NCBI GenBank assembly: GCA_009881125.1
Contig: WXFH01000035.1
Span: 1 to 51,092, forward strand
Length of the DNA: 51,092 nucleotides
Direction: 5' to 3'
From: Acidaminobacter sp.
GTDB lineage: Bacteria; Bacillota_A; Clostridia; Peptostreptococcales; Acidaminobacteraceae
Part shown: positions 1,178 to 36,942 of the stretch, one piece after another
Layout of the letters: each line of letters opens with the position of its first letter
How positions within the stretch are numbered: position 1 is the stretch's first letter
Position numbers and translations under genes: made by a program
The notes under the pieces: generated by a model
Database searches by the model: none
The model's input: the letters and a program-made list of their open reading frames with translations, nothing else
What the model was told of the DNA's origin: nothing

Positions 1178-1597
1178 TTATTGAAGCGCGATGTCACCAT
1201 TTTTGATTTTATCAGAAAGCATTTTAACGTTTTCTTCGATCTTCTGAATAATGATCTTAAATTCATCATCGCTTTTACCCGATGGATCATCAAGTCCCCA
1301 ATCCTCTTCATGCTGGCTCGGAAGAAATGGACAGATCACGTTGCATCCCATCTTGATGACAATGTCAACTTCCGGAATATCCGGGAGCAATTTAGGCTTC
1401 TGGGTTTCTTCCATGTCAATGGAGTAAATCTCTTTGATCAATCTTACTGCGTCCTGATTGATTTGAGGTCTCATTTCAGTGCCTGCGGAGTAGCTTTCAA
1501 AGACATCTCCTGCAAAATGCTTCCCCAACGCTTCTGCCATCTGGCTTCTGCAGGAATTGTGAACACATATAAAAGCGACTTTCGGTTTTCTTCTCAT
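1178..1597 (-). CDS. arsC: Arsenate reductase, thioredoxin-coupled
   Basis: A cytoplasmic reductase of As(V) to As(III), which the Acr3 pump encoded upstream then exports. The low-molecular-weight phosphatase loop CX5R (Cys11-VHNSC-Arg17) is at the N terminus. The redox cysteines of the thioredoxin-dependent type are Cys85 and Cys89 in MGCNVICP, and DDPSGKS is the acid loop. At 139 residues it has the normal length. The start is ATG 1597, with GGAGGCGG nine bases upstream; an ORF extension reaching 1639 overlaps the end of acr3 and has no binding site. It is the last gene of arsR-acr3-arsC. Confidence 0.92.
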   Translation of the reverse strand: MRRKPKVAFICVHNSCRSQMAEALGKHFAGDVFESYSAGTEMRPQINQDAVRLIKEIYSIDMEETQKPKLLPDIPEVDIVIKMGCNVICPFLPSQHEEDWGLDDPSGKSDDEFKIIIQKIEENVKMLSDKIKNGDIALQ

Positions 1598-1613
1598 TAT
1601 TTTCCGCCTCCAA

Positions 1614-2675
1614 TTATAATGCTTTTTTCTCTGGCACAAACCAGTTTCTTGTATTGTTGGCGATTTTGACGAGTGTCAACATGACCGGTACCTCTACGAG
1701 TACACCGACCACTGTAACTATAGTCGCGCCGGATTGAAGTCCAAAGAGAGAGATCGCAACTGCAACCGCAAGCTCAAAGAAGTTTGACGCGCCAATCATG
1801 CCAGCAGGCGCCGCGACATTGTGAGGCAGTTTCCAAAACTTCGCCCAGAAATAGGCTATAAAGAAAATTAAGAAGGTTTGAAGAATCAATGGGATTGCGA
1901 TCAAGACAATATTGATTGGATTATCGACAATGATTTGTCCCTGGAAAGAAAAGATGATGATCAGGGTCAAGAGTAATCCGGCGATTGTAACATTACCGAA
2001 TTTTGGAATATAGACCTTTTCAAAATACTCAAGCCCTTTGTTTTTTGAAATGATTACCCTTGAAAACCATCCAGCACCCAGCGGAATGACGACGAAAAGA
2101 ACGACTGAAAGAAACAGTGTGTCCCATGGAACTACGACATTACTGATCCCAAGCAGGAAGGCGACAATCGGCACAAAAGCAACAAGGATGATGAGATCGT
2201 TGGTTGCAACCTGTACGAGCGTGTAGGCAGGATTTCCTTTTGTCAGGTGGCTCCATACAAAGACCATAGCCGTACAAGGCGCCGCGCCAAGGAGAACGGC
2301 CCCAGCCAAATATTCCTTGGCAAGCTCGTTTGATATCAGACCTTTGTAAAACACATAAAAGAACAGTGAGGCAATGCCAAACATGGTAAAGGGTTTGATC
2401 AGCCAGTTGGTCACCCAGGTGATAATGAGACCTTTCGGATTTTCGCCCACTTTTTTGATGCTGTGGAAGTCAACCTTGAGCATCATTGGGTAAATCATGA
2501 GCCAGATCAAGATCGCGACTGGAATGGACACGCTGGCATACTCAAACTTGCTCAGCCAAGCTGGAACCTGAGGCAAATAGACGCCTATCAAAATACCAAT
2601 GATCATGCAGGCCGCGACCCACACTGTCAAATATCTCTCGAAAAAACTCATGCCTTGGATTTGTTTCTTTTTCAC
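1614..2675 (-). CDS. acr3: Arsenite efflux permease Acr3
   Basis: An inner-membrane arsenite exporter of the Acr3 (BART superfamily) type, not the ArsB type. It has 353 residues with about ten hydrophobic helices. The family signature around the essential cysteine is visible as LLGAAPCTAMVFVWS near residue 135. The start is GTG 2675, preceded by GGGAGG with suitable spacing. The gene sits 34 bases after arsR and 16 bases before arsC, so the three are one operon. No arsD, arsA or arsM is nearby. Confidence 0.93.
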   Translation of the reverse strand: MKKKQIQGMSFFERYLTVWVAACMIIGILIGVYLPQVPAWLSKFEYASVSIPVAILIWLMIYPMMLKVDFHSIKKVGENPKGLIITWVTNWLIKPFTMFGIASLFFYVFYKGLISNELAKEYLAGAVLLGAAPCTAMVFVWSHLTKGNPAYTLVQVATNDLIILVAFVPIVAFLLGISNVVVPWDTLFLSVVLFVVIPLGAGWFSRVIISKNKGLEYFEKVYIPKFGNVTIAGLLLTLIIIFSFQGQIIVDNPINIVLIAIPLILQTFLIFFIAYFWAKFWKLPHNVAAPAGMIGASNFFELAVAVAISLFGLQSGATIVTVVGVLVEVPVMLTLVKIANNTRNWFVPEKKAL

Positions 2676-2709
2676 TTTTGGATCCTCCCTGAAATTTGCT
2701 GCCTTGATT

Positions 2710-3102
2710 TTAGCTGCGATTCACGTGATTCATAATGTAATTTTCGACTTTGCTTTTATCGCTGGTTATATCCGAGCAGTTGTAAGCGCTTTTTTTGTAC
2801 ACATCGCATTTCTCAAGATCTAGAACAAAGGGTTGTTCCTTTTGAAATCCTTCTTTCAAATAAGTTGACAACTGTCCATGGTCGTTGAGAAATCTGTCAT
2901 CGACTTTGTAATGGACCCATTGGCCATCTTTGGACCCTGTAATGATCTTTTCTTTTCTTAGTACGCCCAGGTGCCTGGACACGTTCGACTGACTGAGGCC
3001 AAGGATGACTTCTATTTCGCAGACACACAGCTCGTAGTGCATTAGGAGATTTAATAGTCTTAGTCGGTTCTCGTCACACAAGCTTTTAAATATATCAAGC
3101 AT
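2710..3102 (-). CDS. arsR: ArsR-family arsenite-responsive repressor
   Basis: A winged-helix repressor of the ars operon that leaves DNA when As(III) or Sb(III) binds its cysteines. Its 130 residues include the helix-turn-helix (about 30-55, LGLSQSNVSRHLGVLRKEKI). The metal site ELCVCEIE at the start of the recognition region supplies two cysteines (CVC), with further Cys in the C-terminal tail (EKCDVYKKSAYNCSD). ATG 3102 follows AGGTGA. A dyad operator overlies its promoter at 3158-3187, implying autoregulation. Confidence 0.9.
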   Translation of the reverse strand: MLDIFKSLCDENRLRLLNLLMHYELCVCEIEVILGLSQSNVSRHLGVLRKEKIITGSKDGQWVHYKVDDRFLNDHGQLSTYLKEGFQKEQPFVLDLEKCDVYKKSAYNCSDITSDKSKVENYIMNHVNRS

Positions 3103-9845: not shown

Positions 9846-10066
9846 GTCACTCAGTTGAGTTTGGTGTCAGACACTCAGTTAAACTCGGTGTCTGACACTC
9901 AGTTGAACTCGGTGTCTGACACTCAGTTGAACTCGGTGTCTGACACTCAGTTGAACTCGGTGTCTGACACTCAGTTGAACTCGGTGTCTGACACTCAGTT
10001 GAACTCGGTGTCTGACACTCAGTTGAACTTGGTGTCTGACACTCAGTTGAACTTGGTGTCAGTGAC
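9846..10066. repeat. 24-bp tandem array, nine units
   Basis: Nine head-to-tail units of ACTCAGTTGAACTCGGTGTC plus TGAC, the central ones identical. Each unit can fold on GTGTC/GACAC with AACT/AGTT flanks. There are no unique spacers, so it is not a CRISPR. The unit is 8 codons long, so an ORF repeating NSVSDTQL passes through it, but there is no binding site or independent support for a protein. It lies after the peptidase gene and before a terminator. Confidence 0.9.
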
Positions 10067-17205: not shown

Positions 17206-18669
17206 TCAAGTCCCGCAAAAGGTCCGGTACGGCCGGGCGCTCTCAGGCGCGGGTGCTGCGTAGGCGGCTTGGTTGGGCGTATGGGCATAAGGCTTAGCCA
17301 GCGCTTCAGACAAGCGGTCCAGAACGCTGAAATCCCCCATACTCACCGCTGCTTCAAGTGCCTCTTCCACCCGATGGTTCCGTGGAATCACCGCCGGATT
17401 CGCGCCCTTCATCCTCTCCTGAACGTCACCCGCTGACTGCGACTGCCGCTGAAGCCGCTCCTGCCACTGAAGCTTCCACTGCTGAAAGTCGGGTTGCTCG
17501 AACAGGCCTCTCACCTCAGGGCGATCGAAGGTTAACGCCAAAAAAGTATTGGTGTAATCCGCGTGATGCCGGTGCATGATCTCGAGCAGCGCTTCAATGA
17601 GCCCCTCGTCCTCTGGCTCATTATTGAATAGGCCCAGTTTTGCGCCCATAGCGTCCAGCCAGCAACTGCGGTAAAGGCCCGAAAACCCGGAAATGGCTTC
17701 CTGCGCCAGGGTGAAGGCCTTCTCCTCATCAGGATCAAGCAGCGGCATTATGGTTTCAGCGAAGCGAGCCAGGTTCCAGGCGGCAATGTAGGGCTGATTG
17801 CCAAAAGCATAGCGTCCGTGGGCATCAATGGAGCTGAAGACCGTTGCTGGATCATAGGCATCCATGAAAGCGCAAGGACCGTAATCTATGGTTTCGCCGC
17901 TGATCGCCATATTGTCCGTGTTCATGACACCGTGAATAAAGCCAACGCTTTGCCACTTCGCGATCAGCCGGGCTTGTCGGTTCATCACCGCGTTCAGGAA
18001 ATCGTAGTAAGGGCGGTCCGAGCCGGATAATCCTGGATCATGCCTGGCAATGGCGTAGTCTGTCAACAGCCTTAGGTCCTGGTCAGAACCCCTGCTATAG
18101 GCGAACTGGAAGGTGCCTACCCTGAGATGGCTTGAAGCGACGCGCGTGAGGACTGCCCCCGGCAGCGACGTCTCCCGGTAGACGGGCTCACCGGTGGAAA
18201 CCACGGCAAGGCTGCGGGTTGTGGGGATTCCAAGGGCATGCATGGCTTCGCTGATCAGGTATTCCCTGAGCATAGGGCCAAGGGCGGCGCGGCCGTCTCC
18301 GCCTCGGGAATAGGGGGTTCTGCCTGAACCTTTCAGCTGCAGGTCGAGGCGATCGTTTTTTGTTGTCACTTGCTCTCCAAGGAGGATCGCGCGGCCATCC
18401 CCCAGCATGGTGAAGTGGCCGAATTGGTGGCCAGCATAGGCTTGAGCGAGGGGCTCCGCACCCTCCGGTGTCCGGTTGCCTGCCAAGTATTCAGTCCCGG
18501 CCTGGCTGTTCAGGGCATCCGGATCAAGCCCCATCTCCTCCGCCAAAGCGCTGTTGAATCGAATAAGCTTGGGCAGTCTGACCGGTGTGGGCTCCAGGTG
18601 GGTGTACAACAGTTTGGGCAGGCGTGCGTATGAGTTGTCGAAATTCCAGCCAAAGTTGGTTTTTGTCAT
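17206..18669 (-). CDS. selO: SelO-family protein AMPylase
   Basis: A pseudokinase-fold enzyme that transfers AMP to Ser/Thr/Tyr of target proteins, linked to redox stress. It has 487 residues. Diagnostic stretches are [91 protein letters not shown] and the C-terminal YRTFCGT. In many eukaryotic members a C-terminal selenocysteine is present; here the corresponding tail is an ordinary Cys followed by a regular stop. GCGGTGACCTC precedes ATG 18669. It is convergent with tcyP. Confidence 0.93.
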
Positions 18670-26217: not shown

Positions 26218-27414
26218 TTACGCCTTATCCTGAAAATACTTAAACCCATATTTCAGCGACAATTCCGCCGCCATCAGTTCTTTGCCCAGGTAGGCCGCGT
26301 GGCTGAGCTCGCTGACCCAGCCGCCTTCCAGGATGGTCCAGTATAAGTCTCGGGCGTTTTCCCCCTGAATGATGTGCAGCAGCTCATTTTGATTGCTGTA
26401 GTGTTCCACGAGGATGTGCCCGGTTTCAGCTTTGGGCACAATGACGAAGTAGCCCTCTTTGTCGAGTTTGACCTGATTGGGGTCTTTATAAGCTGCGACG
26501 AGGATGTTTGGAGTTGAGGCGGGTTGGGGCTTGGTGACCATCGGCAAAATGTCTTTAAAGGTGCCGGCAGAGGTGTTCATGAGGACTTCCTCGCGCTGAC
26601 CCTTTCGCGACGCAATCTCGTTCAGGATCACCGCTTCATCCAGACAGCCAATCAGATTGACGATTTGGACCTGAGACCTGAAGGCTTCGACCTCATCCCC
26701 GGACACATTGGTCAGTACCGGCTTTCGGCCTTTGGAGCCTATGACGCGGCCATTTTGGTCCACACCGTTTTTCACCAGCGCTTCAAGTGTCTGTCCGGCG
26801 AAGTGCCCCTCTGAGTCATTGCCGCAGAGGATCAGCGTCCTGAGGGCGGGCATTGCCAGTGTATTTTGGATGATCTTTTCAATGCCAATATTCTCCGTCT
26901 CAGCTTTGCCTGCAATGCTGAGGCCCTCCGGTTTTAGCTGAGACATGCGCTCTGCAAGCGCCGGCGAGGCCAGAGTTACGAGGGCCACGCTGGACTGCGG
27001 CTTCAGAGAAATCACGTGGTATTCTCCAATTGCCGGGAGTGCGGCGTCTAGGGCGCTTAACGGCAGCTCGGCCACAGTTTCAATAGCGTGGATGCTGCTC
27101 AGGTCCGAAAAAACGTCATCAAAGGCATTGGTTATATCTGCTGACCAGCAGTGAGCGCAGCCCGGTCAGGTGTACTCTATGGGTTCCATGAGACCAAGGG
27201 CCTGGTCAACGTCGCGCAGGATCATTGTCGTTTCATGGGCGCTCTCGGATTTCCCGGATGCTGAGGCCGCCGTCAGCTGTCCTTGAATTGTCAGCAGCGT
27301 TTCCTTCATGCAGCCGCACTTCCTGCATTTGGCTGTGTCCATAGCAGTCTGAATCAGTGTCTGAAGCTGAAGTGCCGTCTTTGGGGATGGATTTGTTTTA
27401 TTCAAAATCAACAT
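26218..27414 (-). CDS. Probable selenoprotein: MtrA-like / DUF4346-type protein with in-frame UGA
   Basis: Read through the TGA at 27166-27168 as selenocysteine, this is one 398-residue protein. Residues 1-82 carry CRKCGC (Cys30, 33, 35). Sec83 begins U-P-G-C-A-H-C (Cys86, Cys89). Residues about 185-265 match methyltransferase subunit MtrA: LILCGNDSEGHFAGQ with a His at 204 where MtrA ligates cobamide, then GRVIGSKGRKPVL. The C-terminal block (about 320-398) is DUF4346-like. ATG 27414 follows GAGGTG. After the TGA, 30 sense codons contain no ATG, GTG or TTG until GTG 27075, which has no binding site, so a separate downstream gene is unlikely. A corrinoid or methyl-transfer role is inferred. 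A nonsense mutation is the main alternative. Confidence 0.8.
27138..27168 (-). promoter_or_regulatory. UGA codon and SECIS-like hairpin
   Basis: On the minus strand the TGA is 27166-27168. Fourteen bases later CTGCT (27147-27151) and AGCAG (27138-27142) form a stem around the four-base loop GGTC (27143-27146), which starts 19 bases after the TGA. The E. coli fdhF SECIS presents a GGUC apical loop 18 bases after its UGA. Outer GGC (27161-27163) and GCC further on could extend it. Bacterial SelB recognises this kind of loop. Confidence 0.72.
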
Positions 27415-27494
27415 GTTGAAATCACCTCATTTATTAGATGCTTCTATTTTACACAAAAAAGTTGAAAGCATCAGCCTCACTCACAATAATCTTC

Positions 27495-32872: not shown

Positions 32873-32928
32873 TGAAACTCGGTGTCAGACACCGAGTTTC
32901 ATCTCAGACACCGAGTTTCATCTCACAC
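32873..32928. repeat. Double short-core GTGTCAGACAC hairpin
   Basis: GATGAAACTCGGTGTCAGAC plus ACCGAGTTTCATC forms a perfect hairpin, directly followed by a second copy of its right half (CAGACACCGAGTTTCATC) and a degenerate third. Confidence 0.72.
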
Positions 32929-32961
32929 CAAATTTCATCCACCAAGCTTCACCAACGCTGT

Positions 32962-36783: not shown

Positions 36784-36942
36784 TGAGTGTCAGACACTCA
36801 CTTGAACTGAGTGTCAGACACTCACTTGAACTTAGTGTCAGACACTCACTTGAACTTAGTGTCAGACACTCACTTGATCTTGGTGTCTGACACTCAGTTG
36901 AACTCGGTGTCTGACACTCAGTTGATCTTGGTGTCAGACACG
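36784..36942. repeat. 24-bp tandem array, about seven units
   Basis: Four units of GAGTGTCAGACACTCACTTG plus AACT, then three of the other array's type (GGTGTCTGACACTCAGTTGA). Each unit contains a near-perfect palindrome. The following GGTAACATTTCTGTAATATT matches the tail at 10068. No spacers, no repeat-encoded gene with a binding site. The 434-base gap 36620-37053 otherwise holds only the terminator below and AT-rich DNA. Confidence 0.88.

Follow-up and report, generated by a model that had tools for sequence, protein, structure and literature searches.

A probable selenocysteine at an in-frame UGA codon of an MtrA-like, corrinoid-type protein from Acidaminobacter

The DNA analysed here is a 51,092-nucleotide stretch from Acidaminobacter sp. 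(contig WXFH01000035.1 of assembly GCA_009881125.1; hereafter the window), whose minus strand carries a gene for an MtrA-like protein with a UGA codon in its reading frame at residue 83. We consider it very probable that selenocysteine (Sec) is inserted at this position of a corrinoid-type protein, and the prediction of Sec at residue 83 is strongly supported: the in-frame UGA aligns with the Cys of homologous proteins, and the frame is conserved on both sides of it. A preliminary description of this DNA, made from the letters alone, had proposed that the gene encodes a selenoprotein; a hairpin downstream of the UGA, the occurrence of UGA genes in three clades and the residues of the corrinoid site are additions to that account.

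The UGA codon in the Acidaminobacter gene and its relatives

The gene consists of two minus-strand frames that lie, as first described, in one register and are parted by a single TGA (Table 1). The next common start in frame past the TGA is GTG 27075, and the sequence bore out the earlier statements that the 30 codons from the TGA to this GTG contain no ATG, GTG or TTG and that no ribosome-binding site is seen upstream of it. Across the junction the protein reads Y-T-U-P-G-C-A-H-C-W-S-A, in agreement with the U-P-G-C-A-H-C first noticed, the U standing where most of the relatives examined have Cys. The CRKCGC motif reported upstream of the TGA was likewise upheld, its C30, C33 and C35 being present in 92 of the 92 alignment rows that span them, as was the assignment to the MtrA-like/DUF4346 proteins, the joined protein having Pfam matches to both PF04208 and PF14251. 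In the nearest genome (G001), which has 86% of the window's sampled words and is possibly not an independent assembly, 1901 bases around the gene are 100% identical.

Table 1. Positions of the MtrA-like gene, its in-frame UGA and the predicted features of its RNA and protein in the window.
Feature	Position	Strand	Details or basis
Joined frame	27414-26218	minus	398 residues; one internal TGA (residue 83)
Shine-Dalgarno-like GAGGTGA	27422..27428	minus	7 nucleotides upstream of ATG 27414-27412
Codons 1-82, including C30, C33, C35 (CRKCGC)	27169..27414	minus	Frame and translation
In-frame UGA, residue 83, predicted selenocysteine	27166..27168	minus	Relatives read as DNA have TGA or a codon for Cys
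Frame downstream of UGA through stop TAA (26220-26218)	26218..27165	minus	Frame and translation
Predicted bacterial selenocysteine insertion sequence (SECIS) hairpin, CUGCU-GGUC-AGCAG	27138..27151 (loop 27143-27146)	minus	Bases 15-28 past the UGA
N-terminal helical domain, residues 1-105, C-x2-C-x-C ... (U/C)-x-G-C-x2-C	27100..27414	minus	AlphaFold2
MtrA-type corrinoid-binding domain PF04208, residues 130-269	26608..27027	minus	Pfam, 117.4 bits against a cut-off of 25
Glu174, aligned to MtrA Glu54 (holds the cobalt-ligating His)	26893..26895	minus	112/112 rows
His204, aligned to MtrA His84 (cobalt ligand)	26803..26805	minus	112/112 rows
PF14251 (PterinBD-DUF4346), residues 317-396	26227..26466	minus	Pfam, 78.1 against a cut-off of 29.6; E 9.2e-22

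Acidaminobacter hydrogenoformans DSM 2784 (L011) has the same gene, with 60-66% protein identity and a TGA at the same residue. Between the two genes 17 of the 30 codons from 84 to 113 differ, 12 of them synonymously; first codon positions account for 3 of the differences, second positions for 1 and third positions for 15. This stretch is conserved better than the protein on either flank. Because the differences are mostly synonymous and at third positions, the 30 codons look translated, and this pattern together with the shared TGA places the codon beyond chance. These data bear on the view that the UGA is a true stop, either in a decayed gene or between two proteins of which the second begins at GTG 27075. 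Database gene calls agree with such a stop insofar as they show separate downstream proteins: 31 of the 120 matches listed for the window protein, its own database entry P0001 among them, begin past the site, as do 116 of the 120 listed for a second UGA gene, L125, and 15 of the 120 listed for L058. A true stop is nevertheless very unlikely, as codons 84-113 lie upstream of that GTG and are under purifying selection, the GTG lacks a visible ribosome-binding site, and in each of three clades the TGA occupies what is otherwise a Cys position, next to C86 and C89, which are present in 94 of 94 rows. The many entries that start just past the site instead suggest that the Sec form is widespread; such starts fit a UGA and do not prove one.

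The preliminary description had proposed a search for homologues that read continuously with Cys at residue 83, and these are plentiful. Of 126 loci from a scan of genome contigs 80 were kept, of which 26 span the residue, 19 with Cys and seven with TGA; among the 120 database proteins listed for the window protein, 76 have Cys. Whole-genome searches found further UGA loci in G749, G593, G1007 and G1013 as well as further Cys loci, giving after duplicate removal 12 UGA genes (the window and G001 counted as one) and 26 Cys genes.

The remaining 13 listed database proteins have Trp at the site, as would be expected if the UGA were read as Trp under genetic code 4; a related possibility is that it is read as Cys without selenium. 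Every locus read as DNA has TGA, TGC or TGT at residue 83 and none has TGG. Twelve of the 13 Trp rows were placed in a tree, where 11 fall within a starred clade of 17 that also holds six Bacillota UGA rows, with P0051 just outside; downstream of the site the Trp rows have CWSA, CWAA or CWGA. The absence of TGG and this clustering indicate that the Trp most likely stems from gene calling under code 4, with a TGA translated as Trp. We therefore give very little credence to a Trp or Cys reading, which would also leave unexplained the sel genes and the invariant hairpin codons described below, both of which fit selenocysteine.

The tree (65 rows, quick method, with the residue-83 site masked in the locus-derived rows) places the 12 UGA genes in three clades and requires three changes between Sec and Cys, two of which are forced by starred branches. 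The exchange has thus taken place repeatedly, with gain and loss of Sec not told apart by the tree. The gene is rare among the genomes sampled. It was found in 3 of 61 relatives of G001 (one a C-terminal piece only), in 1 of 391 genomes of the class of G001, in 16 of 395 genomes of the phylum of a Syntrophaceae locus (some of them MtrA-domain matches only) and in 4 of 249 genomes of the order of a Sedimentibacter locus (one a C-terminal piece).

Selenocysteine machinery and a hairpin downstream of the UGA

A check for selA, selB, selD and tRNA-Sec had been proposed, and all four are present in the nearest genome, where selD, selA and selB are consecutive on one contig with tRNA-Sec nearby, the latter also called by ARAGORN. 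The selD of this genome, whose frame begins upstream of the scored part, itself has an in-frame UGA; the context is SSG-U-AAKIGP, which we take to be the usual Sec site of SelD. Among the genomes with UGA genes, SelB scored over its cut-off in 11 of 12, SelA was present in 10 of the 10 tested and tRNA-Sec in 9 of the 10 tested.

A hairpin that resembles a bacterial SECIS can be formed downstream of the UGA (Table 1), with a core, UGCU-GGUC-AGCA, at bases 16-27 past it and a loop that starts at base 20. The codons for C89-W90-S91-A92 that make up this core, TGC TGG TCA GCA, are invariant in all eight Bacillota UGA genes, while conserved residues near the hairpin vary in codon in the same genes (four codons for G85 and two for C86). 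Elsewhere in these eight genes TCA is used for 35 of 186 Ser codons and GCA for 59 of 209 Ala codons, so that the chance of finding the same codon in all eight is about 1.6e-6 for TCA and about 4e-5 for GCA when shared ancestry is ignored. The Trp whose codon supplies the GG of the loop occurs in none of the 80 Cys rows of the 112-row alignment. Other UGA genes have hairpins of their own: the L024/L058 pair has UGCUACC-CGGC-GGUAGCA or a one-base variant of it, and L125 has a third type, UGCCG-GUUC-CGGCA. A hairpin with a G in the apical loop reaches threshold in 11 of 12 UGA genes, that of the window included, compared with 3 of 25 Cys genes (an N in L023 kept that gene from being counted). 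SelB would insert selenocysteine at residue 83, with the likely hairpin, which begins at the 15th base past the UGA, probably helping the codon to be read in this way.

Several observations weigh against selenocysteine. Two metagenome-assembled genomes with UGA genes are incomplete for the machinery, G066 having no SelB over the cut-off and G068 no tRNA-Sec, and SelA is present also in five of five Cys-form genomes tested and in one genome with an MtrA match only, so that the machinery alone does not discriminate. One UGA gene, L124, has no hairpin by the criteria used, and the region around the UGA folds no better than its shuffles (z 0.14). Minimum-energy folds of the 50 nucleotides downstream, computed for six distinct Bacillota genes, give other pairings in four of them (L011, L013, L014 and L030). 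In some Cys genes, L015 and L034 among them, a stem whose loop lacks the G is possible in a comparable position. In synonymous shuffles run gene by gene, values below 0.05 were obtained for 5 of 12 UGA genes and also for 1 of 25 Cys genes (L016).

A second pair of machinery-like genes was seen in the Syntrophaceae genome G067, where a second tRNA-Sec-like gene (53.6 bits) adjoins a second SelB-like frame of 782 amino acids (G067:C15:7918-9991; L139, L104). The higher-scoring tRNA-Sec and SelB of this genome sit on other contigs.

Domain architecture and the possible role of residue 83

The N-terminal domain was predicted by AlphaFold2, with scores of 84.5 (predicted local distance difference test) and 0.78 (predicted template modelling, pTM) for residues 1-110. 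Its sequence matched nothing in PDB and reached the cut-off of no Pfam family, and Pfam finds nothing in residues 1-82 alone. Its six Cys/Sec positions comprise five conserved Cys and residue 83. The PF04208-type domain that follows shows the MtrA fold, and the protein likely binds a corrinoid because it keeps both the His that ligates cobalt and the Glu that holds this His. The C-terminal PF14251 domain is a putative pterin-binding domain, as named in Pfam.

The closest known system is MtrA, the corrinoid subunit of the Na+-pumping methyltransferase of methanogens (PF04208; PDB 5laa, 5l8x), from which the window protein differs in having an additional Cys/Sec-rich N-terminal domain and the PF14251 C-terminus. 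With TIGR01111, the model for the MtrA subunit of the methanogen Mtr complex, it scores 112.8, below the cut-off of 249.15. Cys-form DUF4346 proteins, for example those of cyanobacteria, Acidobacteriota, Nitrospirota and archaea, share the three-part architecture and the six-position Cys pattern, with Cys at residue 83, and most Cys rows show 41-47% identity (alignment A2). The nearest NCBIfam model, NF002128, has a cut-off of 568, and the window protein (337.5) and two Cys forms (443.4 and 423.1) all score below it.

Fusion of a Cys/Sec-rich module to a corrinoid domain suggests that the module acts on the cobalt. The N-terminal domain may hold a metal ion or an Fe-S cluster, of which Sec83 might be a soft ligand or a redox residue, and the module could in this way protect or reductively re-activate the cobalt of the chain's own corrinoid. 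We put this role forward tentatively, by analogy with two systems. In the corrinoid iron-sulphur protein (CFeSP), a [4Fe-4S] cluster serves reductive activation (PMC7305189). MtrI of Methanosarcina mazei has, according to PMC12774963, a Cys4 zinc ribbon, acts on the MtrA corrinoid and, following exposure to oxygen, places a Cys on the MtrA cobalt, with Cys40 as the axial ligand. MtrI resembles the N-terminal domain in being helical and differs in being a separate protein of fewer than 100 residues; the domain has no sequence match to it in PDB, and no MtrI chain appears among the 50 rows listed in either fold list. Against the proposed module stand the whole-chain pTM of 0.49, too low to fix the arrangement of the domains, and the result for MtrH, the usual partner of MtrA, which was found in none of the 12 UGA genomes (E 1e-10) in a search whose 14 control genomes gave positives in two methanogens.

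A selenoprotein in which Sec83 instead ligates the cobalt, or captures metal in a metal(loid)-handling protein, is unlikely in our view. The MtrI thiolate on the MtrA cobalt speaks for a cobalt ligand, as does HgcA, which is thought to bind its corrinoid through a Cys (PMC7305189); its corrinoid domain is of the CFeSP kind, and it also has a transmembrane domain. HgcA and HgcB are both listed selenoprotein families (PMC13188914), and we liken them to the present protein by description, as a corrinoid protein and a Cys-rich partner for which Sec forms are listed. A metal(loid) role is favoured by the position of several Cys-form relatives near RND (resistance-nodulation-division) pumps of the CusA/CzcA family, heavy-metal P-type ATPases and ArsR/SmtB regulators. 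Neighbours of these kinds occur at 10 of 26 full-length loci and 4 of 54 others, a comparison that is biased because the search queries were drawn from the first group; among the seven UGA loci in that group only L013 has a match (ArsR), and the ATPase beside L024 is of the magnesium type. The heavy-metal neighbourhood is thus a lead and not a result. More specifically, Sec83 could be the axial ligand or immediate soft-metal donor of the cobalt in the same chain, forming a natural Co-Se centre exchanged repeatedly with Co-S(Cys) in a large and systematically truncated family of which some Cys members belong to clusters for heavy-metal resistance, a reading that we consider improbable.

Neighbouring genes, novelty and implications

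Six Cys-form loci (L020, L017, L016, L021, L026 and L038) lie in or beside clusters with an ArsR-type regulator, a CusA/CzcA-type pump or a heavy-metal P-type ATPase. In L020:5488-12629 the genes for ArsR, the MtrA-like protein, OEP, HlyD and CusA follow one another in this order on one strand. The Omnitrophota Cys form (L022:1397-7026) lies downstream of PAPS reductase, PHO4, glutamyl-tRNA reductase and porphobilinogen deaminase on the same strand, a possible link to tetrapyrroles. Elsewhere on the minus strand of the window, an ArsR-family regulator, an SBF-family transporter and a low-molecular-weight phosphatase-type protein are consecutive at 1178-3102, presumably resembling an arsenic (ars) cluster, and 17206-18669 encodes a SelO family protein (PF02696) that ends in RTFCGT and is thus a form without Sec, although Sec members of this family are listed. 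Around a TCAGACAC core, units of 24 or 19 bases form tandem arrays at 9848-10060, 36786-36941 and 32885-32939 and yield repetitive frames such as SDTQLNSV.

The earlier impression that this family is not known as a described selenoprotein agrees with the searches made. An inventory of 2026 (PMC13188914) has no MtrA, DUF4346 or tetrahydromethanopterin entry in its table of 119 prokaryotic families or subfamilies, with whose members the window gene shares an in-frame UGA with Cys homologues, a bacterial SECIS and sel genes. NCBIfam 20.0 has no selenoprotein model for it, only general MtrA-type and dihydropteroate-synthase-like models, all scoring below cut-off. A literature search that covered few subscription papers yielded no paper on DUF4346 and no description of the family as a selenoprotein; papers obtained for selenoproteins together with MtrA bear titles on unrelated topics, and PMC11291895, in its relevant passages, treats selenoproteins and the enzyme as separate subjects.

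Gene finders would truncate such a gene at the UGA, and the Sec reading, if true, would explain many short database entries, not every one of which need contain a UGA. It would add a selenoprotein family in a new protein context, since the inventory has no MtrA-type Sec protein. A Co-Se centre, if true, would mean that, outside methanogenesis, a corrinoid system contained in one chain serves against metal(loid) or redox stress. With Sec and Cys forms side by side in one family and hairpins specific to clades, direct comparison of the two forms is possible, and through this family a connection of selenium with B12 and Cys-rich metal sites can be put to the test.
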